The notes below the pieces were generated by a model that had not been told where the DNA came from, ran no database searches, and saw only the letters and a list, made by a program, of their open reading frames with translations. A stretch of 47,028 nucleotides of DNA, from positions 1 through 47,028 of the forward strand of contig NZ_CP079740.1 of assembly GCF_019916025.1 (NCBI RefSeq), in the 5' to 3' direction. The translations under genes were made by a program, and so were the position numbers. Of the stretch, positions 6,884 through 24,867 are shown piece by piece. This DNA comes from Paraclostridium bifermentans (GTDB taxonomy: Bacteria > Bacillota > Clostridia > Peptostreptococcales > Peptostreptococcaceae). Each line of letters opens with the position of its first letter. Positions within the stretch are counted from its first letter, which is position 1.

Positions 6884-6917
6884 ATATAATTCCTCCTTTG
6901 TTTTATTTGTTAACTCT

Positions 6918-10361: not shown

Positions 10362-10468
10362 TTAAAAATCCCCCTAACATATTTTTTGTCATTACATAAT
10401 ATCTTATATCGGTACCTTTTTCTAGTTTTTAAAGATAATTATCTCATTTTAGTTATCTTTTAATTGTT

Positions 10469-10538
10469 AAATTTAATTAACTTAACACAAAAAGAAGTAT
10501 TCAATTTGAATACTTCTTTTGTTAAGTTAATTAAATTT
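10469..10538. terminator. long imperfect hairpin between divergent transcription units
   Basis: AAATTTAATTAACTTAACA...AGAAGTATTC on the left is matched by its complement on the right with a three-base bulge, giving about 33 paired bases. It lies upstream of the response regulator (minus) and of the 10873 gene (plus), so it ends no known gene; it may terminate an unseen transcript or act as an insulator. The rest of 10362-10830 shows no ORF. Confidence 0.5.
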
Positions 10539-10830
10539 ATGTTTATAACCCTAAAACACAACTATTAAAAATCTAAATATACCCTTTTCTATTTAGATTT
10601 TAATTAACTTTTATATACTTTTATCGACACTATGAGTTTGAATTTGAATTGAGATACTTAGTTCATACTTTTATGTATGTACTTATTTACAAACTATATA
10701 AAAAGTATACGTCTTAAAAAAACTTTGTTCAATGCTTTGTTGCATACTAGACCTTAACTTATGCATTTTAGATATTTTTTAATTAAAAGCTAAATTTCAA
10801 CTAAATACGCAATTTTTAAATAGTATAATA

Positions 10831-11433: not shown

Positions 11434-11515
11434 TTTTATTAATATCTAACTTTTAAATGTAACACTAACTCAAACCTAATATAATCAATTGGTGACTGCA
11501 TACATATATTAGTTG

Positions 11516-11551
11516 ATAAAATAAGGAGGACAAACGTCCTCCTTATTTTAT
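11516..11551 (+). terminator. hairpin carrying the GGAGGAC/GTCCTCC core
   Basis: 16-bp perfect arms around AAAC, ending in a T-rich stretch, about 80 bases after the HTH/RHH stop codon. It combines a terminator-like shape with the recurring palindrome core. Confidence 0.6.
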
Positions 11552-11665
11552 TTATAAGTCTATATTTATATATTTCGCTTATCATATCCCTTTATAATTA
11601 TTTTAACATGACGATAATTATATTTAGAATCACTATTTATTTAATATAACAATGAGGTGACCCCT

Positions 11666-12007
11666 ATGAGAATCGAGTACAATGACAATAAATCTATTTT
11701 TAAATTCAACTTTTTAAAAAACAAAGATTTGAAAAAGCAAAGTAACTTTTATTTTATTTTTGGAGTAATAATTTATATAATTTATACCATTAATACTTTA
11801 AAATCTTATACTATAATAGATGGAAGTTTTGAGGTGTTTTTCATTAGCTTATTTTTTAATTTTATATTAATGATTTTAACTTTTATAATTTTTCATTTAG
11901 TCTATTTTACAAAATATAATAGTGAATTTATACCTACAAATACTACTTTAATTATTACAATAATTACTTTTCTGCCATCTGTAGTATTATTGTTTTTATC
12001 TATTTGA
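11666..12007 (+). CDS. small membrane protein of unknown function
   Basis: This is a 113-residue protein with three hydrophobic helices (near 29-47, 54-80 and 92-112) after a basic N-terminus. A GTG at 11657 is in frame, but it lies inside the Shine-Dalgarno GAGGTGA (11654-11660), so ATG 11666 is the start. Not recognised. It sits between the HTH/RHH gene and the partition genes and may be plasmid cargo. Confidence 0.5.
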   Translation: MRIEYNDNKSIFKFNFLKNKDLKKQSNFYFIFGVIIYIIYTINTLKSYTIIDGSFEVFFISLFFNFILMILTFIIFHLVYFTKYNSEFIPTNTTLIITIITFLPSVVLLFLSI

Positions 12008-12048
12008 AAATTCACATTTATAAAATAATCAGCATATATTTAAAAGTA

Positions 12049-12066
12049 ATTAAATATACATTTAAT
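12049..12066. repeat. 18-bp ATTAAAT/ATTTAAT palindrome, par-region copy 1
   Basis: ATTAAATATACATTTAAT, followed by a half-site TATTTAAT at 12071-12078. The same 18-bp pattern stands before parA and before parB. Confidence 0.5.
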
Positions 12067-12095
12067 AGTGTATTTAATAATTATCTCTAATTTTG

Positions 12096-12128
12096 AAAGA
12101 GACTTGTTATCACGAAATAAGTCTCTTT
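12096..12128 (+). terminator. intrinsic terminator
   Basis: AAAGAGACTT (12096-12105) pairs with AAGTCTCTTT (12119-12128) and runs into T residues. It follows the membrane gene ending at 12007. Confidence 0.8.
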
Positions 12129-12199
12129 TTTCTATACTTAAATAACATTTTCAACATTAAATTAATAAATTAAAAAAATAAAAATGAGGTGTTAGTGTA

Positions 12200-12376
12200 A
12201 TGTTTTTACTAAACTTTATAGGCATAAACTATTCAAACTGGCTCTGGATTGATTATGCTTTATTTGTATTTGCTATATTTATAATATTAAGTGTAATTTT
12301 CTATTTTGGTAATGGTTTCTATATTGTTTTCAAACAGAAAAAGGCTTCTAAAAAACAAAATACCAAATCTAATTAA
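12200..12376 (+). CDS. 58-residue single-pass membrane protein
   Basis: GAGGTG lies upstream of the ATG. The peptide has a short hydrophobic start with aromatic residues (YSNWLWIDYA), one strong membrane helix (about 19-37) and a basic tail (KQKKASKKQ). It is bounded by terminators on both sides. No family was recognised; the size and topology suit a small accessory or toxin-like membrane protein. Confidence 0.5.
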   Translation: MFLLNFIGINYSNWLWIDYALFVFAIFIILSVIFYFGNGFYIVFKQKKASKKQNTKSN

Positions 12377-12417
12377 TTTAAAACTGAATTATATAATAGT
12401 ATTAATATTTTATTTTT

Positions 12418-12441
12418 AAAGAGCTATATTTTTAGCTCTTT
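12418..12441 (+). terminator. intrinsic terminator
   Basis: AAAGAGCT (12418-12425) pairs with AGCTCTTT (12434-12441), followed by a T-rich stretch. Confidence 0.8.
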
Positions 12442-12518
12442 ATTTTTAATCTTTATAAATAGATTAAATTAGTATTTAAAAATAATTTAATTAATGATAA
12501 AATATATATTAAACTACT

Positions 12519-12536
12519 ATTAAATGTATATTTAAT
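12519..12536. promoter_or_regulatory. 18-bp palindrome before parA
   Basis: ATTAAATGTATATTTAAT ends 19 bases before the parA GTG start. Its position suits an operator for the par operon or a centromere repeat. Confidence 0.5.
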
Positions 12537-12555
12537 ATAAAAAGGAGTAATAAAA

Positions 12556-13404
12556 GTGGCTAAAAATCAAACAATTTTAACACATATGAGCTTTAAGGGT
12601 GGTAGTTCCAAAACATGTTTAAATCTAAATTTTATACATCAATTTTGTACAAACTATCCCCATAAAAAAGTATTGTTTATAGATGCTGATCCTCAATCAA
12701 ATGCATCAGTATTTTTATTAGGAGAAGAAGTAATTCAATCCAATATATATACTTTGAAAGATGGGTTAGAAAGCAATATTGAAATAGATAAGTTAATTAT
12801 GAAATCTCCGCTAAGTAAATTTCAAAATTTAGATATTATAGCAAGTAATATAGATATGGTTACTCTTGAATTAGTTCTTAATACAAAAGCCGGTAAGGAA
12901 TATACTTTATTGAATTACTTAACTGACGATAAGAATATAGATGTTTTTTCAGAATATGATTTAGTATTATTTGATTTAAATCCTGCTATATCTGTTTTAA
13001 ATACAAATGTATTTATATGTTGTACAGATATTGTGCCTATAATAAACTACGGATGTTATAGCACTCTAACAGGTTATGATTTGTTATTAAAAACCTATGG
13101 AGATATAAAGAAAGCTCTTAGAATAGATAAAGATGATATAAGAAAACCAGTTATCACTAAATTTGAAAAACAAGAAAACAATAAAATAAAAATGTGGTTA
13201 GAGTGTGCTACAGAAAAAGGAATTTTAGGAAATACATTTAAACAAACTATGAGAAAGTCTGTTCACTATGAAAACTCAATATTATATAACGAATCGATTA
13301 GTGAGTATGTGAAAGTTAAAGAAAGAAAAATAAAAACTGATATAGGAAATGAAATTTCCGACTTAATAAATGAATACATAGAAGAAGGTTTAATAGTTAT
13401 TTAA
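12556..13404 (+). CDS. parA: ParA-family plasmid partition ATPase
   Basis: This is a 282-residue ParA/MinD-type ATPase with the deviant Walker A motif KGGSSKT (14-20), Walker A-prime VLFIDADPQSNAS, and Walker B-like YDLVLFDLNPAIS. There is no N-terminal HTH, which matches the small ParA type that leaves operon repression to its ribbon-helix-helix partner. The start is GTG with AAAGGAG upstream. It drives plasmid segregation by ATP-dependent DNA binding. The small partner gene follows 72 bases later, and the 18-bp palindromes before both genes are candidate binding sites. Confidence 0.92.
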   Translation: MAKNQTILTHMSFKGGSSKTCLNLNFIHQFCTNYPHKKVLFIDADPQSNASVFLLGEEVIQSNIYTLKDGLESNIEIDKLIMKSPLSKFQNLDIIASNIDMVTLELVLNTKAGKEYTLLNYLTDDKNIDVFSEYDLVLFDLNPAISVLNTNVFICCTDIVPIINYGCYSTLTGYDLLLKTYGDIKKALRIDKDDIRKPVITKFEKQENNKIKMWLECATEKGILGNTFKQTMRKSVHYENSILYNESISEYVKVKERKIKTDIGNEISDLINEYIEEGLIVI

Positions 13405-13420
13405 TAAAAATTTTATAATT

Positions 13421-13463
13421 ATTAAAAATACATTTAATCAATATTAAATATTTATTAAATATT
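13421..13463. repeat. cluster of ATTAAAT repeats before the ParB-like gene
   Basis: ATTAAAAATACATTTAAT (13421-13438) fits the 18-bp palindrome. It is followed by three ATTAAAT units in direct orientation up to 13460, directly ahead of the Shine-Dalgarno. Direct heptad repeats are typical targets of ribbon-helix-helix partition proteins. Confidence 0.5.
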
Positions 13464-13476
13464 AGGAGAGAAAGCT

Positions 13477-13830
13477 ATGAATATTGAAAATCCAATGTTA
13501 AATAAAAAAAGCAGTTTATTAAACATAAAACAAAAAGTAGATGAAAAATCAACGGGCCAAGAATTTATTGAGAATAAAAATACTGATATTAATGTATTTG
13601 ACTTAATAAATAAACCAAAATTAAAAGAAGAAAAAGTTATGATTGGAATTAAATTAAAAAAGGAAATCGCTGATAAGGTTAAATCTTTTTCTTATGAAAA
13701 TAATATGACTGTTTCTCAAGTCTTAGAAGATATCGTCTGTAAAATGTTTGACTCAGTTGAACTTAATGTAGATGCCTTAACTGCATATGAAGAGAAGTAT
13801 AAAAAAAAATCAAAGAAAAATAAAAAATAA
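13477..13830 (+). CDS. small ParB-type partition protein, ribbon-helix-helix
   Basis: This is a 117-residue basic protein. The N-terminal half is polar and probably unstructured, which in such proteins contacts ParA. The C-terminal half fits a ribbon-helix-helix: a strand in KVMIGIKLKKEIADKVKSF, then MTVSQVLEDIVCKMF, then a Lys-rich tail. AGGAGAG precedes the ATG. The position behind parA and the repeats upstream indicate a centromere-binding and autoregulatory partner of ParA. Confidence 0.75.
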   Translation: MNIENPMLNKKSSLLNIKQKVDEKSTGQEFIENKNTDINVFDLINKPKLKEEKVMIGIKLKKEIADKVKSFSYENNMTVSQVLEDIVCKMFDSVELNVDALTAYEEKYKKKSKKNKK

Positions 13831-13888
13831 TTAATAAATGTATAAAAAAGGGAGGACAATTGTCCTCCCTTTTTTATACATTTATTAA
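13831..13888. terminator. 58-bp perfect palindrome with GGAGGACAATTGTCCTCC apex
   Basis: Self-complementary without a mismatch, centred at 13859/13860. It begins one base after the ParB-like stop codon and covers the stop codon of the convergent gene at 13885, so it serves as a bidirectional terminator. The apex is the recurring GGAGGACA/TGTCCTCC core. Confidence 0.85.
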
Positions 13889-14517
13889 TCTAAATTAGAT
13901 ACTTTACTACTCTTGTAGAAAGTTTTTATTCCATTGTTTTTTATCTTGCTATTTCTTGGAGCTTGAAAAAACAATAGTATAAAAGATAATACATCTACTG
14001 ATGCTCCTGCAGCATTAACAATTTCCAAAATTAAAATAATCATAGGGTTTACCCCTAATAAGGTCATTATAATTGGCATTACAAATGACAATATTATAAA
14101 TGGCATTATAGTTACTATCAAGTATCTATTTCTACTAATTATTTCTTCTGTATAAACAAAACCACCCCATAGTTTTACTGAAATAAATGTTGATTTAGAG
14201 TTTGCAAAGTTTGGAATACATACTAAATGAATAACTTCATGTAAAAATATATACATATATATGTATACTATATATACAGGCTTAATTGTAAAAACAAATT
14301 TTCCATCATAAAAAATAGAGTTTATAATTGTCAATAAGTCTTTATTTATAAGCTTAATAAAAAATATACATAAATAAATATTTATAATTGATATAGGTAA
14401 TGATATTAGAGTTGCTGTCACTAAGTTTCGAGGTTCTTTTAACATTTTCCAACCAGTACTAAGCATGTCCTTATTTAAATTAATATCTGTATCTGGTATT
14501 TTACTTATATACTTCAT
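13885..14517 (-). CDS. HExxH integral membrane protein (DUF3267-like putative zinc peptidase)
   Basis: This is a 210-residue protein with about five membrane helices. HEVIH (93-97) at the end of the second membrane region is the zinc-binding motif of M50/DUF3267-type membrane metalloproteases; a final P-x-P-like or NxxP motif is not obvious. It is last in the peptide-maturation gene run (18862 to 13885), 43 bases after the thioredoxin-like gene. It could trim the peptide or protect the producer; the first is suggested by family, the second by position only. Confidence 0.65.
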   Translation of the reverse strand: MKYISKIPDTDINLNKDMLSTGWKMLKEPRNLVTATLISLPISIINIYLCIFFIKLINKDLLTIINSIFYDGKFVFTIKPVYIVYIYMYIFLHEVIHLVCIPNFANSKSTFISVKLWGGFVYTEEIISRNRYLIVTIMPFIILSFVMPIIMTLLGVNPMIILILEIVNAAGASVDVLSFILLFFQAPRNSKIKNNGIKTFYKSSKVSNLD

Positions 14518-14560
14518 AAAAATTTCCTTTCATTTACATGTATGCGTATTCTATATATAC

Positions 14561-15133
14561 TTATTTTACATCACTTATCATTTTATTGAACTCTTTTTCT
14601 GTAAATGATCCAACATGCTTTTCACCATTTAAATAAAATGTAGGTATAAAATCTATCCCAAGATCATCTCTTTCAGACAGAATATGTTTTTGCATCTCAA
14701 CTCTATCTTTTTTAATAGCACCTAGTTTAAAAAACTCTTCAACATCTTTCACGTTTTTCATTTTACTCCATGTTTTATAATTATCCATTATATAATCTAC
14801 CGTTTCTATTTTATCTAAGTTATCAATTCTGTTGAATATAACATCATCATACTTAAACTTTTCAAAATCAACATGCTTTACTACATAATATATTTCACCA
14901 TTTTTAATTTTATCTCTTAATGTATCTCCTATATTTTCATGTAACTCATAGCAGTCTATACATTGAAAACTCATGTATTCTACCAATTTTATTTTGGCAT
15001 TAGGGTCTCCATATGCTAGTCCATACTTTGTATCTATAGTTTCTTTACCTTTAGAGTATATTGAATATGCTGATATACAGATTGTAATAAAAGCAATAAA
15101 TAAAACTAATTTAACTACTCTTTTCTTATCCAT
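14561..15133 (-). CDS. membrane-anchored thioredoxin-fold oxidoreductase (DsbA/BdbD-like)
   Basis: An N-terminal membrane helix (about 6-24) is followed by a thioredoxin_4-type domain with the active site CIDC (Cys58 and Cys61 from this start) and the cis-proline segment FIPTFYLNGEKHVG. BdbD-like proteins of this type form disulfides outside the membrane. An upstream ATG at 15154 is in frame, but AGGG before the ATG at 15133 and the ATGGATAA overlap with the preceding gene favour the shorter 190-residue form. The precursor peptide of the same cluster has three Cys, two of them after its hydrophobic helix, which makes it the likely substrate. Confidence 0.8.
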   Translation of the reverse strand: MDKKRVVKLVLFIAFITICISAYSIYSKGKETIDTKYGLAYGDPNAKIKLVEYMSFQCIDCYELHENIGDTLRDKIKNGEIYYVVKHVDFEKFKYDDVIFNRIDNLDKIETVDYIMDNYKTWSKMKNVKDVEEFFKLGAIKKDRVEMQKHILSERDDLGIDFIPTFYLNGEKHVGSFTEKEFNKMISDVK

Positions 15134-15410
15134 TTGCCCTCTTTCCTTTTTCATAGAAATTTTTACAAAACTTCGTTCTTGAAACTATGAATACTAATCC
15201 AATAAGTACTATATATAAAACTATGTATATCAAAACTAAGTTTGAACTTATGTTTAATTTGAAACTACTTTGTGCTATATCTAGTACAACTCCACCATTA
15301 AATAAATTTACGCTTTTGTTACTTATCAAGGAATATAACAAGTAAAAAACTATACTAAACGGTATAAGTATAAAATATGCAGCAGATACAATTCCTAATG
15401 TTTTTTTCAT
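15126..15410 (-). CDS. small two-helix membrane protein of the peptide cluster
   Basis: This 94-residue protein has hydrophobic helices near 8-28 and 58-77, separated by about 30 residues predicted outside the cell, and a basic C-terminus. It overlaps its neighbours on both sides: four bases with the RRE-M50 gene (ATGA) and eight with the thioredoxin gene, so translation is coupled through the three. No family was recognised. Immunity protein or a membrane partner of the thioredoxin (BdbC-like, though far too short for that) are possibilities. Confidence 0.6.
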   Translation of the reverse strand: MKKTLGIVSAAYFILIPFSIVFYLLYSLISNKSVNLFNGGVVLDIAQSSFKLNISSNLVLIYIVLYIVLIGLVFIVSRTKFCKNFYEKGKRANG

Positions 15411-16300
15411 TTTATAGCTCCCTTCATTAGTTTCTTCATTAGAATTTTTCTAAGTATTCCTTTCCCATCTTGTGTAAAAGGTAATAGATTTATTACATTA
15501 ATTGCAAATCCTATTCCTAGAGTAAATATCATTACACTTTGTATTTTTATTGAAATTACTATTATTATGATTCCTAAAACGCTTGGAATCAATGGTCCTA
15601 GTAAAATAGATAATAAACTAGATTCTGTATTTACCTTAACTATGCTTACAGTAAATCTTCTTGCTAATATGTATCCACGAAATTCCTGATTTTGAATTTT
15701 ACTAACAGCTATATGAATCCATTCATGCATAACAAATCCACCTATAATTGAAAGTATAAAAACCAAGTAGCAGTCAATGGCATAATTTATCTTCTCATTA
15801 AACTCAGATACTAAATTATGTTTAAATAAGTAAATAGTTATAAAAGTAATCATCCACATTACAAACAACTTTTTTGTTACTACATAAATCAAAAGAGTCA
15901 AAGATCCAAATTTAGATTCAGAAACAGAGTATCTTTTCTTATACACATATTGAAATATACTTATGTTTAAAAATAAAACTACTATTTTATTCCCTATTAC
16001 CTTACTTTCAACTAAGTTTTTATCTTGTAAATTGCTTAATATATTTATTACATCTCTTTCTAATACAGTCTTTTTTACATTATACTTTTTGAGTAGCGCT
16101 ATAACTATGTCATCTATAGTGTTTTTGCCATTAACCAATTTTAAAATTTCATAAGCAACCCCATTTAGTGTAATGCTTTTATTTAAATCCTTATCAAAAA
16201 TTAAATTTTCATTTAAATCTACGCTATTAGGAATAATAAAAACTGTTTTTATTTTTAATAATTCTTTTATCTTTTCAATTAAAAATGTAAATAGGTTCAT
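15407..16300 (-). CDS. RRE (PqqD-like) domain fused to an M50-type membrane metalloprotease
   Basis: Residues about 25-100 look like a PqqD/RiPP recognition element: an N-terminal strand pair (DKDLNKSITLNGVAYEILKL), the helical NGKNTIDDIVIALLKKY and a third helix DVINILSNLQDKNLVE. The remainder is an M50-like peptidase with HEWIH (192-196) and a second metal motif NLLPFTQDGK (271-280, Asp278) in membrane helices. An RRE normally holds a leader peptide for a modifying enzyme; here it would present a precursor directly to an intramembrane protease. GGAGAG precedes the ATG. No radical SAM, YcaO or lanthipeptide synthase is encoded nearby. The layout recalls YydH-YydI-YydJ of Bacillus subtilis without its radical SAM enzyme. 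Confidence 0.78.
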   Translation of the reverse strand: MNLFTFLIEKIKELLKIKTVFIIPNSVDLNENLIFDKDLNKSITLNGVAYEILKLVNGKNTIDDIVIALLKKYNVKKTVLERDVINILSNLQDKNLVESKVIGNKIVVLFLNISIFQYVYKKRYSVSESKFGSLTLLIYVVTKKLFVMWMITFITIYLFKHNLVSEFNEKINYAIDCYLVFILSIIGGFVMHEWIHIAVSKIQNQEFRGYILARRFTVSIVKVNTESSLLSILLGPLIPSVLGIIIIVISIKIQSVMIFTLGIGFAINVINLLPFTQDGKGILRKILMKKLMKGAIK

Positions 16301-16345
16301 CTAATCTCTCCTTTATAAATTAAAATGTATTATTTAAATATAAAT

Positions 16346-17809
16346 TTAATCTAACTTAGAATTTAACTTATAAAGCTTTGGTATCATCAGCGTTATAGCT
16401 ACTACAGATATTAAAATAAGTTGATATATATATGCACCACTAAATGTTAGTGATATTATAGAAATCAAAATACATATTGCCGCAAAAGATAAAAATACAA
16501 TTATATTTGAAAATGGCTCTTTTTCTCTAACTGGAATTACAATACCATATGTGTAAATCACTATAACCCCCATTGCAGTATACATTAATCCACTTTTAAA
16601 TAATTCTATATTTATACCTAAATATGTAAATACGATGAAAAATAGTATCGTATATAGCAATATTCCAATAATAAGATTCCCTATTAGTTTCCCATAAGAA
16701 ATTAACTTACTAGAAATAGGAACTATATTAGAGTAAATAGTGAAATTTCTATCTTCACCAAATGAACTTAGTGCGAATATTGAACAAAAACTTGATAAAA
16801 TTAAATTAGCAATTGTTTTGTCTATAGTGTTTGGATCCAAAAACCCTACAGATATAATTATGCATATTAATACAAAGAAATTTGAAATATTAGTCTCACT
16901 TCGTACAATATGTTTAACTTCTTTTATTACAATCCATAACATTTTACCTTTGTATTTTGGTATATATTTAAAAATCATTAAATTTCTATTATCAAGTTCA
17001 ATTCCAGCAAATATAATCGTTATTAATATTCCTAAAATCAAAATTATTCCACTTAAAGTCAAACCAACTTTTGCATCTTTATAGTTAAAATATCCATATC
17101 CCAAACACATATCTATAACGGGTAATAAAATATTTACTATTGATACCTTATATGAGTTACTTTTAACTAAAAGACTATCTAGGTTAATTTTACTAACTAA
17201 ATAAATAAACGTATTTATACCTAAAATAATTGAGGCTAATTCTCTGATAAATTTTTTATGTGATATAAAGTACAGTAATCTAATTATTAATAGATAAATA
17301 ATATTTAATAAGAAATATATCAATAATGATTGCAAAATTACAGATATTAAATATATAATAATAATTTTTATATTAACCTTGGATCCGATAAATGATGGTA
17401 GGTGAAAAAATGTTACATAGCATAGATTGGTAATAATTATAAAAAATAATTCTTGAATTGTTTGTGCACATATCTTTTCTTTCTTTGTAAGAGGTAACCA
17501 TTTTATTATTTTGCTATAATTACTGCTATCATTGTCTGAGTTAATTAGTATTATGTATATAACAAAAGTAATTAAAGTTACATTTAACATACTTGAGGAA
17601 ATAAATGAAAAAAGCATACTTTTATTTCCGCTAATAATAGCATTAATCATAGGCGAAAATATCTTATACGATATAATAGCTCCTAAAAGAATAAAAAATG
17701 GGACTACAATAGATATAAAAACAAAGTATTTTTTAATTTTATTATATAAACTATTTTTAACTCCCTTAAGCATTGTTGTTAAAATTAGAAATGATTTCTC
17801 CAATCTCAT
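16346..17809 (-). CDS. ABC transporter permease of the peptide cluster
   Basis: This 487-residue protein has about twelve hydrophobic segments in two halves separated by a cytoplasmic stretch around 275-300, consistent with an ABC-2 type exporter permease. The start overlaps the ATPase gene by 44 bases; GAGGACAG nine bases before ATG 17809 supports it, while a second in-frame ATG at the ATPase stop codon lacks a Shine-Dalgarno. With the ATPase it would export the 72-residue peptide or confer resistance to it. Confidence 0.78.
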   Translation of the reverse strand: MRLEKSFLILTTMLKGVKNSLYNKIKKYFVFISIVVPFFILLGAIISYKIFSPMINAIISGNKSMLFSFISSSMLNVTLITFVIYIILINSDNDSSNYSKIIKWLPLTKKEKICAQTIQELFFIIITNLCYVTFFHLPSFIGSKVNIKIIIIYLISVILQSLLIYFLLNIIYLLIIRLLYFISHKKFIRELASIILGINTFIYLVSKINLDSLLVKSNSYKVSIVNILLPVIDMCLGYGYFNYKDAKVGLTLSGIILILGILITIIFAGIELDNRNLMIFKYIPKYKGKMLWIVIKEVKHIVRSETNISNFFVLICIIISVGFLDPNTIDKTIANLILSSFCSIFALSSFGEDRNFTIYSNIVPISSKLISYGKLIGNLIIGILLYTILFFIVFTYLGINIELFKSGLMYTAMGVIVIYTYGIVIPVREKEPFSNIIVFLSFAAICILISIISLTFSGAYIYQLILISVVAITLMIPKLYKLNSKLD

Positions 17810-18521
17810 TTTTTCTGTCCTCCCCTATAGCAACTTTCATAAAAACTTCTTCTAAGTCTTCACATTCAAATTCTTCTTTTAAACGATGACTTGTGCCCTT
17901 TGCTACAGTATTACCTTTATAAAGCATTATTACCTCATCCGATAATTCCTCAATTAAATTTAAATCATGTGAGCATAATAATATACTTCCTGAGCTTATA
18001 AAGCTCTTAAAAAGCTGTTTTGTTATTATAATTGACTCTATATCTAACCCCCTGAAAGGTTCATCAATAATTATTACCTCGCTTTCTAATGAGAAAGCAA
18101 CTATTATCTGAATTTTTTTCTTCATTCCATGTGAATATTCTTTTATCAAAATATCTAAAAAGTCTTGCATATTATACAGTTGAATTAATTTTTTTAATTT
18201 ATCACTTTTCTTTATAGAGTATACTGATAAAATAAAATCTATATATTCTCTCCCAGTCAAAGATTCCGGTAGTATCAAGTCATCTGGGATGTATCCAACT
18301 TTCTGTTTAAATTCTAGACTATCATTTTTATAATTTTCATATAATATCTTACCTGTATCTCTTTTGATAGTCCCTAAGATTAAATTAATTGTTGTAGTCT
18401 TTCCAGATCCATTAGGGCCTACAAGCCCTAAAACTTTATTTTTATTTAAAGAAAAACTGAGATTTTTTATAGCAACAATTTTATTGTTATAAGTTTTTGT
18501 CAAGTTATCTACATAAAGCAT
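17766..18521 (-). CDS. ABC transporter ATP-binding protein of the peptide cluster
   Basis: This is a complete nucleotide-binding domain: Walker A GPNGSGKTT (35-43), Q-loop near KQKVGYIPDD, signature YSHGMKKK (129-136; YSHGM in place of LSGGQ), Walker B VIIIDEP (149-155), and the switch His in LLCSHDLNL. A C-terminal tail of about 40 residues overlaps the permease gene. The signature variant is common in the bacitracin/lantibiotic-type export and immunity family. GGGAGGA precedes the ATG. Confidence 0.9.
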   Translation of the reverse strand: MLYVDNLTKTYNNKIVAIKNLSFSLNKNKVLGLVGPNGSGKTTTINLILGTIKRDTGKILYENYKNDSLEFKQKVGYIPDDLILPESLTGREYIDFILSVYSIKKSDKLKKLIQLYNMQDFLDILIKEYSHGMKKKIQIIVAFSLESEVIIIDEPFRGLDIESIIITKQLFKSFISSGSILLCSHDLNLIEELSDEVIMLYKGNTVAKGTSHRLKEEFECEDLEEVFMKVAIGEDRKNEIGEIISNFNNNA

Positions 18522-18559
18522 AGTTTACACATTCCTCCCAGTACTTAAATCAATTTATA

Positions 18560-18583
18560 GACTTAGGTGTCCTAAATTTAAAT
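18560..18583. repeat. inverted-repeat arm downstream of the precursor gene
   Basis: GACTTAGGTGTCCTAAATTTA followed by AAT; the inverted copy is at 18882-18903 on the other side of the precursor gene, differing by one base and a two-base gap. The arms flank exactly the 72-residue peptide gene and its Shine-Dalgarno. Confidence 0.6.
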
Positions 18584-18643
18584 CTTTATCTTTTGTTATA
18601 GTTTTAAATTTTTTAGTATAATTTTAATAAATTAAAGTCCTAT

Positions 18644-18862
18644 CTATTTACACTCTATGTTAACGTTAAGTCCATTTTCCCACTTAACTCCACCAGTAAA
18701 ACTTCCTTTACCTTGAACTAAACACCAAATTGCAGCTCCTAAAACAACAGTAGCTCCTAATGCTAAAAGTACTGCTACGAAAACTAAAAACCATGCTTGT
18801 TCCTCAGTTATTTCAAAATTATCACACTCTATTACAGGTGCATTGTATTGTATTAATTCCAT
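18644..18862 (-). CDS. 72-residue precursor peptide of the RRE-M50 cluster
   Basis: The hydrophilic, acidic N-terminus (about 1-23, with ECDNFEITEEQAW) looks like a leader recognised by the RRE domain. A continuous hydrophobic helix (about 24-50) holds Cys47, and a C-terminal segment rich in Gly, Asn and Lys (GKGSFTGGVKWENG) ends in Cys71. Cys13 lies in the leader. AGGAGG precedes the ATG. The small size, strong Shine-Dalgarno, first position and separate flanking repeats fit a bacteriocin- or pheromone-like precursor made in excess over its processing genes. A mature product with a Cys47-Cys71 disulfide, cut within or beside the helix by the M50 protease, is inference. It matches no bacteriocin family I know. 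Confidence 0.72.
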   Translation of the reverse strand: MELIQYNAPVIECDNFEITEEQAWFLVFVAVLLALGATVVLGAAIWCLVQGKGSFTGGVKWENGLNVNIECK

Positions 18863-18881
18863 TTCCCAATCTCCTCCTCTA

Positions 18882-18903
18882 ATTTAAATAGAACACCTAA
18901 GTC
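18882..18903. repeat. inverted-repeat arm upstream of the precursor gene
   Basis: ATTTAAAT-AGAACACCTAAGTC, partner of 18560-18583. In the precursor mRNA it would directly precede the AGGAGG Shine-Dalgarno, so pairing with the distal arm could protect the message or affect translation; alternatively both are operator sites. Confidence 0.55.
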
Positions 18904-19484
18904 AAAAGACATTGTTAGATATTTGACAACCTTGCCTTTGTATAAATTGTTGCATATCAAAAAATCGTTTGCAATATTCAGTTCGAATAATGTCAAAATT
19001 TTTATATAATTTAATAAATTGAAATAAGTAAACGTGTTTAGTTAATCTACTATATATACTGTGTACGAATATTGGAATTACATAATATTCACTTTCATGA
19101 TGTAAGGATATTTTGGAAATAAATTTTTATATTTTGTATATTAAAAATCAAATAAGTCTATTTTTGTTGAAATTTGCTTAATTTTATATTTTTTTGTCAT
19201 TTTCTTCCCTATTAGCTAACTTTTTCTCTTTTCTAAAACTTAAAGTTCGGATGAAATTTAATAATATTTATCCTAAGTATTAAAATAAATATTGTTGTAA
19301 GTAGTTAATTCTAACCTATATGTTAAAACTTTTAAAAATACTTTATATTTAAATCTTAATCTAAATATATGCTCATTTTAATCCAATTTTATTTTAATTC
19401 ACTCTATTTAAATTGATTTATTTTACTTAATCTGTATAATAATTATCAATCTGAGTTAACTACAAATATGTAAAGGAGTTCATA
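18904..19484. other. noncoding region between divergent genes
   Basis: About 580 bases without a supported ORF. It must hold the promoter of the peptide cluster (minus) and that of the small gene at 19485 (plus). A TTGACA on the minus strand lies near 19010, but no matching -10 at normal spacing was found, so I cannot define the promoter. Confidence 0.35.
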
Positions 19485-19628
19485 ATGGTTTTAATATCCT
19501 TATTCCAAATCTTAAGCATTCTGTTATTAATTAATGTATTTGTAATTATATTTATATCAATTTTTAAGTTTTTAAAATCTAATAATCAGATTGATATTGA
19601 AATCAATAAATTAAAAGATAAGGAATAA
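19485..19628 (+). CDS. 47-residue single-pass membrane peptide
   Basis: AAAGGAG lies nine bases before the ATG. The peptide has one N-terminal hydrophobic helix (about 2-27) and a charged tail (QIDIEINKLKDKE). A short hairpin with nine T residues follows. Unrecognised; the shape resembles small membrane toxins and regulatory peptides, with no further evidence. Confidence 0.5.
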   Translation: MVLISLFQILSILLLINVFVIIFISIFKFLKSNNQIDIEINKLKDKE

Positions 19629-19646
19629 TATAAAGTTTTATATTGT

Positions 19647-19671
19647 AACTAATTTTAATTAGTTTTTTTTT
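19647..19671 (+). terminator. intrinsic terminator
   Basis: AACTAATT (19647-19654) pairs with AATTAGTT (19657-19664), followed by T residues to 19671. Confidence 0.75.
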
Positions 19672-19721
19672 ATTTATTATAGTAAAATTTTACTCAAATC
19701 AATATTAGGAGGATTTAAGTT

Positions 19722-19931
19722 ATGGAGAAAAAACAATATGTTTGCCCTAAATGTTCAAATACATCTTATGAAAGTGATCAATTTCAAGCTACAGGTGGAA
19801 ACTTTGCAAAAATATTTGATATCCAAAATAAAAAATTTATAACTATAAGCTGTACTAAATGTGGATACACTGAACTTTATAAAAGTAATACATCAGATGG
19901 ATGGAATATTTTAGATTTTCTTATAGGTTAA
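19722..19931 (+). CDS. DUF2082-type zinc-ribbon protein
   Basis: This 69-residue protein has CPKC (9-12) and CTKCGY (44-49) as the two halves of a zinc ribbon, separated by ATGGNFAKIFDIQNKKF, and ends in WNILDFLIG. This is the full pattern of the small nucleic-acid-binding zinc ribbon family DUF2082. AGGAGG precedes the ATG. Function in the family is not established. It stands alone before a 29-bp-arm terminator, just outside the replication origin. Confidence 0.8.
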   Translation: MEKKQYVCPKCSNTSYESDQFQATGGNFAKIFDIQNKKFITISCTKCGYTELYKSNTSDGWNILDFLIG

Positions 19932-19932
19932 T

Positions 19933-19997
19933 ATATCAAATTCAAATAAAAAAAGGATATTATTTACTAATATCCTTTTTTTATTTGAATTTGATAT
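19933..19997 (+). terminator. terminator with 29-bp perfect arms
   Basis: Arms 19933-19961 and 19969-19997 surround a 7-nt loop; an internal run of seven T residues lies in the right arm. Confidence 0.85.
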
Positions 19998-20102
19998 TAA
20001 ATTTCTCATTTTATTTTATAAAAATTACAGTTTTTTCGATCTTTATCTTCCGTTTTTAGCTAAATTTTCTAAATTCCCATATATTTACCCATTTTGATGT
20101 GC

Positions 20103-20134
20103 AAAAACTTTCTCATAGGCGCTGAGAGGTTTTT
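20103..20134 (+). terminator. terminator-like hairpin in the origin region
   Basis: AAAAACTTTCTCA with TGAGAGGTTTTT (two G-U type pairs) around TAGGCGC, ending in five T residues. No gene ends here. It may end a short regulatory RNA of the replicon; a promoter was not identified. The rest of 19998-20400 has no ORF. Confidence 0.4.
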
Positions 20135-20253
20135 ATCTATATGTAAACTTTATTCTTTGATAGTTAATATTTCTTGAAAAAGATTTTTACGTAAAGTTAA
20201 AAAATATATTACTAATATTTATAATTAAATTAATCATCTAAATAGCAAAATAA

Positions 20254-20270
20254 ATATGTCATATTGATAA
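20254..20270 (+). repeat. degenerate outlying iteron
   Basis: ATATGTCATATTGATAA matches the iteron core (TGTCAACTTGATA) except for two bases. Similar outliers lie at 21793-21809 and 21892-21907, on the far side of the initiator gene. Confidence 0.5.
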
Positions 20271-20408
20271 TATATTTTGATTTAAATAGATTAGATTAGA
20301 ACAGAAAAGTACCTTTACTAGTCTTTACTATTATTTAAAATAGTATTTAATAGTATTTATAGTATTTAAGTAGCAGTGAAAACCTTGAAATCACTTATAC
20401 TGAAGCGA

Positions 20409-20558
20409 TTAAAAGTGTCAACTTGATAGTTAAAAGTGTCAACTTGATAGTTAAAAGTGTCACTTTGATAGTTTTTATATGTCAACTTGATAGTTAAAAG
20501 TGTCAACTTGATAGTTAAAAGTGTCACTTTGATAGCATTAAAAGTGTCACTTTGATAG
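20409..20558 (+). other. replication origin iteron array, seven direct 21-bp repeats
   Basis: Copies start at 20409, 20430, 20451, 20472 (22 bases, degenerate front), 20494, 20515 and 20538, with core AAAAGTGTCAACTTGATAG or the variant AAAAGTGTCACTTTGATAG. The 21-bp period (two helical turns) puts Rep molecules on one face of the DNA. An AT-rich stretch follows at 20559-20600. This is the initiator-binding part of the origin. Confidence 0.92.
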
Positions 20559-20594
20559 CATATTAATATAACAAAAAGTTAATACTGTTAAAAT

Positions 20595-20627
20595 ACAGTG
20601 TCAAAATTGAAAAAGTGACACTTTTAA
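20595..20627. promoter_or_regulatory. inverted half-iterons before rep (probable autoregulatory operator)
   Basis: CAGTGTCA and AAGTGACACTTTTAA face each other, the second being the iteron core in reverse orientation, about 50 bases before the rep start. In Rep_3 plasmids inverted half-iterons at this place bind Rep dimers that repress rep. Confidence 0.65.
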
Positions 20628-20678
20628 ATTATACATATGATATACTAGTTTTAGTAGTTAATAGAATTGGGGGGTATT

Positions 20679-21785
20679 ATGAGTAATTTAACTGATATAG
20701 AAAATCCAAAAATACTTATGAAGAACAATGTGCTAATACAATCTAAATATAGCTTAACATTGAATGAAAATAGAATATTTTTGTTAATACTTTATAAACT
20801 TCAAAAAAACTATAATGGATCAATGCATTGTGATATTCATTATGATGAATTTAAAGAAATAATAAAAAGAACGAATGATAGAACTGTGAAAAAAATAAGT
20901 AGCTATTTAGAAGGTCTTATGAACAAAAGTATATTTTTCATTGAAAAAAAGAGAAATGATAAATTGATTTGGGGACAATACAATTTTATATCAGGATACC
21001 AGTTTGATGAAGAAACTCAGATTTTTAGAATCGAAAGCCCCAAAAAAATTTATACTCTATTAGACCAATACTTAAAGACAGGATATACTCCTGCAAACTT
21101 AGCTATACTATTTAGTTTGAAGAATTATAATGCTCAAAGATTATATGATTTAATAAGAGTTTGGTCAGGAACTAAACAAACTATAAATTATAAAATTGAG
21201 GATATAAAGATGTATTTAATGCTAGAAGATAGTTATCCTCAATATTCAAATTTTAAAAGACGTGTAATTTTACCAGCAATAAAAGAACTAAATGAAAGTG
21301 GGTTTTTTGAAATAGATATAAAAGAAAACAAATCAGGAAGAAAAGTTGAATCAATAGATTTTATAGTAAAAGACTTAGACAAGAGAAAGTACTTCTCTAA
21401 AGATGATGTAATTGATCAAATTGGGGAGTCTAATATTTATGAACAATCAAGTGTACCTGAACCATTTGAAGAAAGTAAAATAAATTTAAAATTAGAAAAA
21501 TCTATTTTAAATAGAGAATTTTTTGTTCCAGATGAAACAGTTTTTACAAAAGGAACCTTAAGAAGTTTTAAAATGGATTTCGAAAATATAGACTTTAAAA
21601 ATGATTATATGAAAAAAGCATTTGATGATGCTGTTATGATAACTCTAGATAAAGACGATGTTGAAACTATAAAAGCCGTATCATATAAATTCTTTAAGGG
21701 AACCTTAGATAATAAAATTTTGGAGTACAAGAAAGAGTATGAAGAAGATTTAAAGCATAAAGAAGAAATGGATTTATTTTGGTAG
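20679..21785 (+). CDS. Rep_3 family plasmid replication initiator
   Basis: This 368-residue protein has two winged-helix domains of the RepB/RepE type. The first opens with VLIQSKYSLTLNENRIFLLILYKLQ and includes IHYDEFKEIIKRTNDRTVKKI; the second includes AQRLYDLIRVW and the RRVILPAIKELNESGFFEIDIK recognition region. The acidic C-terminal 90 residues are less conserved. A TTG at 20667 is in frame but falls in the GGGGGG Shine-Dalgarno, so ATG 20679 is the start. It would bind the iterons directly upstream to open the origin, and probably the inverted half-iterons to limit its own synthesis. Confidence 0.93.
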   Translation: MSNLTDIENPKILMKNNVLIQSKYSLTLNENRIFLLILYKLQKNYNGSMHCDIHYDEFKEIIKRTNDRTVKKISSYLEGLMNKSIFFIEKKRNDKLIWGQYNFISGYQFDEETQIFRIESPKKIYTLLDQYLKTGYTPANLAILFSLKNYNAQRLYDLIRVWSGTKQTINYKIEDIKMYLMLEDSYPQYSNFKRRVILPAIKELNESGFFEIDIKENKSGRKVESIDFIVKDLDKRKYFSKDDVIDQIGESNIYEQSSVPEPFEESKINLKLEKSILNREFFVPDETVFTKGTLRSFKMDFENIDFKNDYMKKAFDDAVMITLDKDDVETIKAVSYKFFKGTLDNKILEYKKEYEEDLKHKEEMDLFW

Positions 21786-21792
21786 TCTTAAA

Positions 21793-21907
21793 ATATGTCA
21801 ACTTGATAATCACACTAAAAGTTTAAATAATAAAAAATATATATATTAAACATTTCAAGTATAGTAGAAATAGTAGACAAATAAATCAAAATGTGTCATA
21901 TTGATAA
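21793..21907 (+). repeat. two degenerate iterons downstream of rep
   Basis: ATATGTCAACTTGATAA at 21793-21809 and TGTGTCATATTGATAA at 21892-21907, the same orientation as the main array. They may titrate Rep or assist handcuffing. The rest of 21786-22040 is noncoding. Confidence 0.55.
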
Positions 21908-22040
21908 TTTAAAAAAATTATTATGTATCAAAACTTCAAGTGAAATGCTAAGTGATTGAAAATGCTAATGTTTAACTGTTTTAAATTATAATGATTTAAA
22001 AAAATTTTTATATAAAAGCAACACATTGATAATTAGAATT

Positions 22041-22079
22041 AAAAAGCTACTGTTTTTTTATTAAAAACAGTAGCTTTTT
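22041..22079. terminator. bidirectional intrinsic terminator
   Basis: 17-bp perfect arms (22041-22057, 22063-22079) around five bases, between the rep unit and the convergent XRE gene. Confidence 0.85.
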
Positions 22080-22091
22080 GATTAACTATAG

Positions 22092-22313
22092 CTATTTAAC
22101 ATCTTCAGTATCATCAACATATTCCAAAATATCTCCAGGTTGACATTCCAATATGTTACAAATACTATTTAAAGTTGTGAATCTAACAGCTTTAGCTTTA
22201 TTATTTTTCAAAATGGAAAGATTAGCCATAGTGATTCCGAGCTTTTCTGAAAGCTCAGTAGAACTCATTTTTCTCTTTGCCATCATTACATCTAAATTAA
22301 CTATAATCGCCAT
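22092..22313 (-). CDS. XRE-family regulator of the DUF2975 module (YozG-like)
   Basis: This 73-residue Cro/CI-type HTH has KMSSTELSEKLGITMANLSILKN as the helix-turn-helix and the conserved end TLNSICNILECQPGDILEY. Very short XRE proteins of this type pair with DUF2975 membrane proteins, as YozG with YoaS in Bacillus subtilis. AGGAGA precedes the ATG, and it follows the 162-residue DUF2975 gene by nine bases. Confidence 0.85.
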   Translation of the reverse strand: MAIIVNLDVMMAKRKMSSTELSEKLGITMANLSILKNNKAKAVRFTTLNSICNILECQPGDILEYVDDTEDVK

Positions 22314-22322
22314 AATATCTCC

Positions 22323-22811
22323 TTATATAGTCTTATCATTTTCTTCTTTTATTTCAATTGCCATAGTGTATAACCTACCTAGCACTAAACTTAAAAATCC
22401 TATAGCTAAAGAAATAAATGAAACTAAAATAGCTGGAATTATGTTAAGTGCATAAAAGTAAACATTAAAGAAGTAGCATAAAAATAATTGTACCACATTA
22501 AATATCAAAATTTCACTAAAAGCACATATTGATATGGTTTTTAGATGATAAGGAATTTGCCTTGAAAAAGGATCTTTGTTAGCAATTAAACTGCATAATT
22601 TTTTCAATGATATCAATGCTATTAAATAAGGTACAGCACACACATAAACTCCTACAGATAAAATAATAGGAATATTCGAGCCAACTATTCCAAAGTTACT
22701 TTTAAAAAAGGCTGTAAACCCAAGGGGCAAGAATAAAAGCAAACATATTGTTAATGTTATTCCTAGTAAAACAATATTATTTAAAATTTTTGAACTAATG
22801 TTTTTTTCCAT
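22323..22811 (-). CDS. DUF2975 membrane protein, copy 2
   Basis: This 162-residue protein has four membrane helices. It aligns over its full length with the upstream gene (22829-23305): both share the N-terminal SS-ILNNIV, PYLIALI-LKKLCSLI, NPFSR or DPFSR, LKTIS-CAFSE and VQL-LC segments. DUF2975 proteins sit with a short XRE regulator; the function is unknown, and a membrane sensor that holds the regulator is often suggested. It lies last before the XRE gene. Confidence 0.8.
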   Translation of the reverse strand: MEKNISSKILNNIVLLGITLTICLLLFLPLGFTAFFKSNFGIVGSNIPIILSVGVYVCAVPYLIALISLKKLCSLIANKDPFSRQIPYHLKTISICAFSEILIFNVVQLFLCYFFNVYFYALNIIPAILVSFISLAIGFLSLVLGRLYTMAIEIKEENDKTI

Positions 22812-22828
22812 AATTATTACCTCGTTTT

Positions 22829-23305
22829 TTATTTTATGTTTTTTATTTTTAGTATTTTTGAATTAATATTGCATAAAACTAAACTAAAAAGTCCTACAAA
22901 TAAAGAAATAAATGAAATTAAAACTGTTGGAATTACATTTATTGAATATAAATAAATATCAAATAAATTACACAAATATAATTGTACTATATTAAATACA
23001 AAAAATTCACTAAAAGCACATAATGATATTGTTTTTAATAAATAAGTAGTTTCCCTTGAAAATGGATTTTTATTATATATTAAACTACATAATTTTTTAA
23101 GTGTAATTAATGCTATTAAATAAGGAATTATGCATATATAAACTCCGGTTGAAACAAATAAAGATATATTCCCACCCACTAATCCCAAAGTATTTTTAAA
23201 AAAATAGTTGAACGATAAAGGTATAAGTAAAAATAATATTAGAGTTATAAATATACCTATTGAGACAATATTGTTTAAAATTGTTGAGCTAAAATTTTTA
23301 TTCAT
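22829..23305 (-). CDS. DUF2975 membrane protein, copy 1
   Basis: This is the 158-residue paralogue of the next gene, with four helices and the same PYLIALITLKKLCSLIYNKN core. The start has no strong Shine-Dalgarno (AGGATATGAAATAATG). The tandem pair with one XRE gene suggests duplication, perhaps giving a heteromeric sensor. Confidence 0.78.
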   Translation of the reverse strand: MNKNFSSTILNNIVSIGIFITLILFLLIPLSFNYFFKNTLGLVGGNISLFVSTGVYICIIPYLIALITLKKLCSLIYNKNPFSRETTYLLKTISLCAFSEFFVFNIVQLYLCNLFDIYLYSINVIPTVLISFISLFVGLFSLVLCNINSKILKIKNIK

Positions 23306-23332
23306 TATTTCATATCCTATTTTAAAATATAT

Positions 23333-23548
23333 CTATTGGCTAATATGTTTTTTCTTAAATAGAAATAGCATAAATTTAAAAATTAAGGCTAAAATTCCTA
23401 TGAAAGAAAATAACCAGAATGTAGGTATTAAGAAAAATGGTTCTATAAGAGTTCCATCTGTAGCAACTTCAGATCCTATAATATTGAAAATTACTAAGCA
23501 TCCTATTGCTATTAAAAATGGTATTGAATATAATAAATTTTTTTTCAT
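23333..23548 (-). CDS. small two-helix membrane protein
   Basis: This 71-residue protein has helices near 5-24 and 41-63, separated by a short acidic loop (GSEVATDGTLIEP). AAAGGAGAG precedes the ATG. It is the first gene of the DUF2975/XRE operon, 27 bases before copy 1. No family was recognised. Confidence 0.6.
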   Translation of the reverse strand: MKKNLLYSIPFLIAIGCLVIFNIIGSEVATDGTLIEPFFLIPTFWLFSFIGILALIFKFMLFLFKKKHISQ

Positions 23549-23753
23549 TGTAGACTCTCCTTTAAATTTGCTTTAATTAAATTATAACATATAATTATAA
23601 TAAATCAATATAAAATTATTGTTTTTCGATAAAAAAGTATTCTTTCGGAATATTTAGATGAAAATTTAATAATGAAATTGTATAAAATATTTTATAGATT
23701 TTAATTAGATGCTTATGGTAATTAAGGTTAAATATTTACAATCATAAATAAAA

Positions 23754-23795
23754 AAGGATCTAAAAGATTATATAGTAAAAATCTTTTAGATCCTT
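23754..23795. terminator. intrinsic terminator-like hairpin
   Basis: 16-bp arms (AAGGATCTAAAAGATT and its complement) with a 10-nt loop, between the HTH gene (minus, ending 23858) and the start of the DUF2975 operon. It would end the HTH transcript, though the T-run on the minus strand is short. Confidence 0.65.
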
Positions 23796-23857
23796 GGTAA
23801 AATGTATAAAAATAATATTGATTAATTGATAGATTTAACTTATATATTCTAAAGTAA

Positions 23858-24226: not shown

Positions 24227-24491
24227 AAAAAAACCTCCGTTAATGACCTACTTAACATTAACTGTAGTATATTATACAAAAAAATCAACTATTTTTTGAG
24301 AAAACTAAAATTATCTAAGTTAACTAGCTAAATAACGAATAATTCCTAGTTGAAACAAGTATTTAAAAATATTAAAGGTTTAAATAACTAAGTGTAAACT
24401 AAAAAGTTCAATTGAATACATTATTAATATAATTTTTAAGATGTTAACTTTATTAATATAACAAAATTATGCAGAAAGGATAGATTGACAC

Positions 24492-24854: not shown

Positions 24855-24867
24855 TGATTGCTAAATT

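Follow-up and report, generated by a model that had tools for sequence, protein, structure and literature searches.

We analysed a window of 47,028 bases from Paraclostridium bifermentans (NCBI RefSeq assembly GCF_019916025.1, contig NZ_CP079740.1, positions 1 to 47,028), which is the whole of a plasmid-like contig. A P. bifermentans plasmid has annotated counterparts of its ParA family gene at 12556 and of its gene for replication initiation at 20667, and positions 11497-28275 are 96.4% identical to plasmid pHD0315_2-3 of this species. Between these two genes lie seven co-directional minus-strand genes, from 18862 to 13885 (Table 1): those for a 72-residue precursor, for the ATPase and the permease of an ATP-binding cassette (ABC) exporter, for a 297-residue protein in which a PqqD-like recognition element of ribosomally synthesized and post-translationally modified peptides (RiPP recognition element, RRE) is fused to a site-2-type protease (S2P), and for a 94-residue protein, a membrane thioredoxin and a DUF3267 protein. 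An earlier note, made from the sequence alone, had described six genes forming a RiPP-like cluster without a known modifying enzyme. The genes are seven, since the exporter is made of two, and the cluster, although RiPP-like, has a known counterpart, that of the TMcins, a class of transmembrane-helix bacteriocins (Nat Commun 2025, PMC12328743). We argue that this operon, of order tmcA-B-C-P-E-D plus the DUF3267 gene, very likely makes a TMcin, that is, a bacteriocin of one transmembrane (TM) helix with a disulfide-closed C-terminal loop, matured under the guidance of an RRE carried by TmcP and exported by TmcBC.

What the earlier note observed is confirmed, and its interpretation is partly supported. 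The precursor with Cys47 and Cys71 is present, as are HEWIH and NLLPFTQDGK in the 297-residue protein, the CIDC thioredoxin, the 210-residue DUF3267-like protein with HEVIH, and the overlaps of the ATPase with the permease gene and of the gene for the 94-residue protein with those of the 297-residue protein and the thioredoxin. The search for the gene order in other genomes was answered positively: the full order is kept in the window and in all 6 other fully covered loci (L002, L003, L012, L013, L014 and L015), which belong to Paraclostridium, Romboutsia and a third genus of the Peptostreptococcaceae, with the 72-residue open reading frame (ORF) conserved beside the other genes. In L011 the order is kept from the protease onward, where the contig begins, and in L003 the permease and the thioredoxin are split into separate reading frames. 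The 297-residue protein has matches in 7 of 71 Peptostreptococcaceae genomes (E <= 0.001), that in G070 being weak; the six good ones (G000, G026, G027, G053, G055 and G057) are exactly those matched by the precursor profile among 70 genomes searched.

Table 1. Features of the TMcin operon of the window (positions in the window)
Feature	Position	Strand	Basis
5' arm of covarying 15-bp stem, 27-41 nt upstream of the tmcA start	18889..18903	-	Covariation
tmcA homologue, 72-residue TMcin precursor; leader 1-22, core 23-72	18644..18862	-	BLASTP to mature TMcin-G1905; family alignment
Leader motif Y6-N-A-P9-V-I11, at -17/-14/-12 before the core	18830..18847	-	Coupling of YxxPx-hydrophobic to RRE
Core peptide AWF...IECK, predicted TM helix then Cys47-Cys71 loop	18647..18796	-	Alignment to TMcin-G1905; AlphaFold2 helix
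3' arm of covarying 15-bp stem, tmcA-tmcB gap	18560..18574	-	Covariation
tmcB, ABC ATPase	17766..18521	-	PF00005, 96.7 bits
tmcC, 487-residue polytopic permease	16346..17809	-	Position and length as TmcC in other loci; tree
tmcP, 297 residues, N-terminal RRE (PqqD) fused to C-terminal site-2-type metalloprotease	15407..16300	-	PF05402; profile A10; hhalign
RRE/PqqD domain, residues 34-97, invariant Asp83	16010..16201	-	PF05402 match; alignment
HEWIH zinc motif of TmcP	15713..15727	-	HExxH in 48/48 protease rows
Distal Asp-Gly of TmcP (NLLPFTQDG)	15464..15469	-	Pro...Asp-Gly pattern in 48/48 rows
tmcE homologue, 94 residues, two hydrophobic segments (by eye)	15126..15410	-	hhalign
tmcD-like membrane thioredoxin/DsbA, CIDC, 197 residues; start may be ATG at 15133	14561..15154	-	PF13462
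Zincin-like membrane protein, DUF3267 (PF11667), 210 residues, HEVIH, extra gene	13885..14517	-	PF11667
Strong bidirectional terminator-like hairpin, operon end	13838..13881		20 pairs

The precursor and its leader protease

At E 1, neither Pfam nor NCBIfam has a family that matches the 72-residue ORF. Its residues 23-72 align with mature TMcin-G1905 of Staphylococcus aureus, in the sequence printed in PMC12328743, at 20 of 51 positions (39% identity; BLASTP, E 1e-13 for the pair), sharing the AWF start, a Trp-Cys and FTG, with core cysteines at positions 25 and 49 in the window and 25 and 50 in TMcin-G1905. Cysteines at 25 and 49-51 recur in 49 of the 50 precursor rows compared below. Like TMcin precursors, this one has one TM helix flanked by Trp (W24, W46) and two cysteines about 25 residues apart; AlphaFold2 places a helix at residues 20-49, with a pLDDT (predicted local distance difference test) that is in the 70s over residues 21-40 and low outside them. 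A third cysteine, C13 (codon 18824-18826), lies in the leader and is invariant in the 7 family precursors aligned. A tblastn search of TMcin-G1905 against 7.3 Gb of plasmids matched 5 records, two from Paraclostridium (5e-5 and 9e-5), whose precursors are close relatives of that of the window, and the others from Peribacillus, Roseburia and S. epidermidis. By these comparisons the ORF is a TmcA homologue and the cluster a TMcin cluster. Plasmid searches with the permease and the DUF3267 protein reached only the two Paraclostridium plasmids and two weak DUF3267 matches; the link to staphylococcal TMcins thus rests on the literature and the peptide. Further plasmid searches with Bacillus-type and RRE-less TmcA gave no additional record. 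Tandem tmcA pairs occur in single clusters of L090, L112 and L115, the copies in L112 being identical in protein.

Two HExxH proteins of the operon come into question as TmcP, the leader protease. In the 297-residue protein, the profile search of the RRE region bears out the earlier note, residues 34-97 matching PqqD (PF05402, 49.3 bits, cut-off 23.4). Its assignment to M50 stands in part: the HExxH motif is there and site-2 proteases are matched by profile, but PF02163 scores 16.9 bits, below its cut-off of 27.2. Against solved structures, a profile of 15 RRE-TmcP proteins (A10) matches PqqD (5sxy, 7e-12), the S2P of M. jannaschii (3b4r, 6e-6) and the lasso RREs TbiB1 (8e-5) and TfuB1 (1e-3; structures 5v1u, 6jx3). 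The profile of the RRE-M50 protein also matches, via its C-terminal domain, the RRE-less TmcP of S. epidermidis (9.6e-7) and Roseburia (5.8e-8), and hhalign against six RRE-less TmcP gives 99.1% (E 6.9e-19).

One might instead take the DUF3267 protein for the leader protease, with the RRE-M50 protein making a second cut or serving another task. S. aureus TmcP has been assigned to PF11667 (PMC13252029) and, in line with this, PF11667 matches 5 of 6 RRE-less TmcP and 1 of 15 RRE-TmcP at E 0.01, while the 210-residue protein is the sole one in the window above that family's cut-off (66.7 bits, cut-off 27.1). However, the DUF3267 profile reaches the six RRE-less TmcP at 75% over 63 columns around HExxH only, and the RRE-M50 profile at 10%; it matches no ORF of the Roseburia (L024) or S. 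epidermidis (L025) loci; and outside the Peptostreptococcaceae a homologue is found in one tabulated locus (L108), whereas most of those loci carry the RRE-M50 protein. We thus consider this alternative unlikely. Because the RRE-M50 protein, which adjoins tmcE, matches RRE-less TmcP strongly and the DUF3267 protein does so only around HExxH, the former is, on profile evidence, the TmcP orthologue and the latter an additional relative of the same clan.

What the extra protein does is a separate question. It may confer self-immunity, for instance by degrading or trapping re-entering peptide, a role that we regard as possible although rather doubtful. It is the last gene of the operon in the window, in the 6 other fully covered family loci and in the partial L011, its HExxH is invariant in all 8 family proteins, and no other immunity candidate was noticed; against this, it lies near tmcA in only one locus outside the Peptostreptococcaceae, and self-immunity is outside the scope of the 2026 paper on TMcin processing (PMC13252029). 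The homologue in L108, a locus of an unrelated family, is close (2626-3270, E 1.7e-46); it is encoded on the opposite strand, some 5 kb away from tmcA, a hint that the DUF3267 protein belongs with TMcins.

Two types of TMcin loci

In one Bacillus-like family TmcA profiles matched 26 of 80 genomes, in the order of that family 9 of 328 and in its class 8 of 329, and the loci of all these matches were retrieved. In the window's own class 1 of 321 genomes matched (its own), and in a sample of the phylum 10 of 398 did so at E <= 0.01, three strongly (its own, G435 and G609) and seven weakly (E 0.002-0.009); the genome sets of the family, order, class and phylum searches overlap. The 50 precursor rows, from 47 loci, comprise 40 with an RRE protease, called when the match to the A2 profile starts before profile position 60, 8 with a protease lacking it, and 2 without a readable protease, one truncated (L023) and one at a contig end (L043). 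In the former, a Peribacillus plasmid locus with a YxxP leader, A, B and C are followed by a short frame that is similar to the beginning of the PqqD domain (10421-10657, E 0.003) and no protease was found; this locus looks degenerate.

In the loci that we call type I, tmcA comes first, the RRE protease lies 2.4-3.2 kb from it and the leader, counted from the nearest Met, is 18-22 residues long in 39 of 40 rows. We read the complete order A-B-C-RRE.P-E, in some cases with D, in a subset of loci (among the Bacillus-type ones L041, L042, L069, L074, L077, L090 and L091), only A, C and P being tabulated for the other Bacillus-type loci. Type II loci have the order B-C-E-P-A, or A-E-P in Roseburia, a protease of 171-212 residues without PqqD and a leader of 28-51 residues by predicted start; the S. 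epidermidis and Roseburia plasmid loci have an E-like and a P-like gene and no PqqD. Of the proteases sampled, all 15 of type I match PF05402, and 0 of 6 of type II do. The leader follows the same division: all 40 type I rows have Y-x-x-P-x-[LVIAFYM], and none of the 8 of type II has [YW]xxP, a comparison spanning 12 genera versus 6 and 7 families versus 6. The Tyr precedes the core by 17 or 18 residues; Tyr and Pro do not vary among 15 representative leaders and are followed by a hydrophobic residue two past the Pro, at Y+5. A TmcC tree of 25 rows (20 RRE, 4 RRE-less and 1 unlabelled, many near-copies being left out, as were L024 and L115, whose permease is cut or broken) separates the two types by a single branch with full support, with warnings of long branches and uneven composition.

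The motif of type I leaders is one that other RREs read. Lasso RREs need the leader register -17/-14/-12 (PMC10368454), which is that of the window leader with Y(-17), P(-14) and I(-12). In crystal structures LPP and lasso RREs bind a YxxP-type motif, D70 of LppB holding the leader Tyr, and the third motif position in LppB tolerated Ala (PMC13381572), so we put weight on Tyr and Pro. In our own reading D83 of the window RRE, an Asp invariant in 15 of 15 RRE-TmcP compared, would correspond to LppB D70. Given this coupling of motif and domain, the RRE probably recognises the precursor leader.

We find it evenly balanced whether TMcins follow two pathways, one in which a lasso-type leader, Y(-17)xxP(-14)x-hydrophobic(-12), is recognised by an RRE-S2P, and an RRE-less one, of staphylococci among others, where the place of this recognition is taken by a longer leader that has a hydrophobic stretch of its own (by eye). 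As the RRE-S2P module is common with daptides, membrane-helix RiPPs that differ in chemistry may, in the same proposal, descend from one RRE-guided intramembrane cleavage machine.

Two loci of the comparison have neighbours of their own. In L015 a PqqD-type ORF (A2 profile) adjoins an ORF resembling, by eye, a lasso B2 peptidase; the two lie at 1590-2295, some 2.5 kb ahead of tmcA, and the locus may hold two neighbouring RRE pathways. In L109 ORFs resembling, by eye, a sensor kinase, an AgrB-type protein and a LytTR regulator stand just before tmcA (5042-7811).

The other genes, the extent of the operon and a putative stem around tmcA

The 487-residue permease has no family match above cut-off and is TmcC as judged by position and length, the tree placing the TmcC rows. 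The 94-residue protein matches Bacillus-type TmcE (hhalign 95.2%, E 2.7e-8). The thioredoxin (Thioredoxin_4, PF13462, 68.1 bits, cut-off 23.2), to which the earlier note had given the disulfide, would keep that role by homology; a DsbA-like gene directly follows tmcE in the window, in L092, L108 and L109 and in all 6 other family loci with full coverage, that of L003 being broken. In L092 (10769-11831) tmcE and the DsbA-like gene are followed by a gene for a 153-residue putative VKOR (by eye), which would give this TMcin locus a pair for disulfide formation, and in the Roseburia locus L024 (9056-10588) the P gene adjoins that of a 510-residue protein, which has thioredoxin domains and weakly matches DsbD.

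Judged from ORF lists, the flanking genes differ between Paraclostridium plasmids, Romboutsia-type loci and G057; thus conservation reaches from the precursor to the DUF3267 gene and no further. Beyond the latter stands the terminator-like hairpin, which accounts for 4 of the 6 sites of this kind listed for 13700-19400 (shuffle mean 0.8). Neither the protease nor the TmcA profile found a match among viral contigs, and a phage collection gave none. The window further encodes an HTH_26 regulator, two DUF2975 proteins and a DUF3955 protein at 22092-23548, for which L002 and L003 have annotations as well; a helix-turn-helix regulatory pair is described for TMcin loci of staphylococci (PMC12328743).

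Across the family loci the precursor is 86-100% identical, more than the protease (61-95%) or the 94-residue protein (53-98%), and third codon positions make up 30 of the 46 varying tmcA sites among six loci. Such a conserved precursor would suit a signalling pheromone, the second of the two products, toxin or pheromone, between which the earlier note had hesitated, and a GHKL kinase and a LytTR regulator (Pfam) are encoded on the same plasmid at 8341-10361, 3.5 kb beyond the operon. Against a pheromone stand the homology to TMcin-G1905, a proven pore-former, and the ORF lists of L013-L015, in which no such pair was noticed beside the operon (these lists were read without a profile search, and L012 ends before that place). 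We therefore hold a pheromone to be very unlikely; of the two products proposed, the exported antibacterial peptide is retained by homology, most likely as a pore-forming bacteriocin.

The two arms of a putative 15-bp stem enclose tmcA. In the six family loci tested for covariation 95.6% of its cells pair, 7 of 15 pairs are changed on both sides (reached in 5 of 500 shuffles) and the covariation score is 0.471, versus at most 0.138 for slid partners and reached in 0 of 500 shuffles, whereas the 11 further pair types are no higher than in shuffles (457 of 500); the rows are related, the structure was derived from one of them, and these counts are not probabilities. The compensatory changes separate Paraclostridium from Romboutsia-type loci. 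Among the loci listed in a duplex scan, the family loci have z of -2.0 to -4.5 and most others are near 0, with L077, one copy in L090, and L111 also at -2.4 to -3.2. Wobble pairs favour an RNA over a pair of DNA operators, and the stem may set a separate, stable tmcA message.

Proposed pathway and comparison with known systems

TMcin processing consists of leader removal, formation of one disulfide and secretion (PMC12328743, PMC13252029), and hence no radical SAM, YcaO or Lan enzyme is to be expected in the operon; the lack of a tailoring enzyme, which the earlier note had recorded, is in keeping with this. In S. aureus TmcP removes the leader, TmcD forms the disulfide, TmcE acts as escort and TmcBC exports (PMC13252029, bioRxiv 2026): full-length TmcA accumulates in a tmcP catalytic mutant and with a stop in tmcE, a tmcD mutant is impaired in the disulfide, which antimicrobial activity needs, and a tmcB mutant loses secretion (PMC13252029). 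We carried over the roles of TmcB, C, D, E and P, and the pore, from this work. In the window, TmcA would insert in the membrane and the RRE fused to TmcP would grip its leader via Tyr(-17)xxPro(-14)xIle(-12), as lasso RREs do, and present the Gln22/Ala23 bond to the S2P active site (HEWIH...DG), a hand-over suggested by the lasso-register motif together with the invariant RRE Asp. The TmcE protein would stand in for gating helices, the TmcD-like thioredoxin would form Cys47-Cys71, and TmcBC would pull the peptide from the membrane and export it, to form pores in neighbouring Gram-positive cells. Beside the homology, gene order and RRE/YxxP coupling found in this analysis, RRE-guided leader removal and the antibacterial activity of the window peptide are thus what we infer.

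Several points weigh against this reading. The AlphaFold2 model of RRE-TmcP is poor (mean pLDDT 45, from a five-sequence alignment). Of the RRE rows, 24 of 40 come from one genus, and the TmcA profiles were built mostly from YxxP leaders (11 of 14 rows in A8), so that RRE clusters with other leaders could be missed. As the two types correspond to one branch of the TmcC tree, RRE and YxxP are correlated through one event kept since, and the nominal Fisher values for their association (5e-5 by genus, 6e-4 by family), which presuppose that the rows are independent although they are not, do not count as independent evidence. The link of Bacillus-type and family TmcE to RRE-less TmcE is modest (hhalign 81.5%, E 1.1e-5). 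Finally, the oxidant of the TmcD-like protein is not evident, the host genome having no VKOR match in a search that did not extend to DsbB.

The coupling of RRE and YxxP is a testable addition to published accounts of TMcins, in which they were described as unlike other RiPP clusters, an unlikeness that hid them from genome mining. If many TMcins carry an RRE on the protease and a YxxP leader, they join RRE biology and could be mined by that signature, and, if the pathway is true, would offer a simple system in which to study the delivery of substrate to an intramembrane protease by a soluble recognition domain. A further question is that of crosstalk where one cell also has a lasso pathway, which seems to be the case in L015. 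The presence of a DsbA-like gene in these anaerobes points to some producers supplying the disulfide enzyme themselves.

Compared with the system of TMcin-G1905 on S. aureus pCT545 (PMC12328743, PMC13252029), that of the window is alike in the core, the ABC pair, the S2P-clan protease, the two-TM escort-like protein and the DsbA-like protein. It differs in the leader, of 22 residues versus the 45 reported for TMcin-G1905, and in the gene order, A-B-C-P-E-D versus B-C-E-P-A in S. epidermidis pHOB2. The main texts of both papers, which are what was covered here, mention no PqqD, RRE or recognition element, and the order A-B-C-P-E may well be among the three published arrangements. The 2026 paper reports tmcD as missing outside staphylococci (PMC13252029), whereas a DsbA-like gene is present in the window, L092, L108 and L109. 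The Bacillus-type loci (L041, L042, L069-L091) share the RRE protease and the short YxxP leader; in five compared, the precursors are 55-65% and the proteases 24-28% identical to those of the window, and the A4 and A3 profiles found no thioredoxin or DUF3267 homologue in these loci.

The N-terminal RRE-S2P fusion is shared with the daptide protease (PMC10036551; NF041824), and in the literature consulted such fusions are reported for daptides only, with none found on PqqD in intramembrane RiPP proteolysis and none linking daptides and their RRE to transmembrane bacteriocins. One could thus see here a daptide-like RiPP, in which the RRE-fused protease acts on a helical peptide: the daptide leader has a motif of its own, ELExMEAP (PMC10036551), its precursor is, like that of the window, rich in branched aliphatic residues, and the NCBIfam family daptide_HExxH (NF041824) matches 6 of 15 RRE-TmcP proteins, at best with 5.2e-8. 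The window protein, however, has no NF041824 match at E 0.1, daptides have other precursors and a C-terminal Dmp chemistry with its enzymes (PMC10036551), the core of the window ends in Lys and not Thr, and the seven genes match no aminotransferase, dehydrogenase or methyltransferase family (for the ATPase, among the best 25 of 193 families). A daptide-like RiPP is thus extremely unlikely; the Lys end and the absence of matched daptide tailoring families refute a daptide identity of the product, and a shared ancestry of the protease is left as a candidate.

The preferred TMcin reading has a further counterpart in lasso B1 RREs and LppB of LPP (PMC13381572, PMC10368454), which have the same YxxPx-hydrophobic motif, with the -17/-14/-12 register shared by the lasso leaders and a sequence match to TbiB1 and TfuB1. 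There the RRE is a separate protein working with another leader peptidase (B2, or SipW-like in LPP), whereas in the window it is fused to an S2P-type protease and the peptide has a TM helix. In Pfam and NCBIfam scans the seven genes matched no daptide or lasso enzyme family, lasso B2 peptidase and C cyclase included, the ATPase again on its best 25 of 193 families. The YydFGHIJ epipeptide operon of B. subtilis, which the earlier note had named for YydH, combines a small precursor, an M50-type protein and an ABC pair with a radical SAM epimerase, a domain that none of the seven genes matched in Pfam; this likeness is less informative than those to TmcP and to the daptide RRE-S2P. The operon is thus not a categorically new system: it is a member of the TMcin class, in a variant that carries an RRE on its leader protease.

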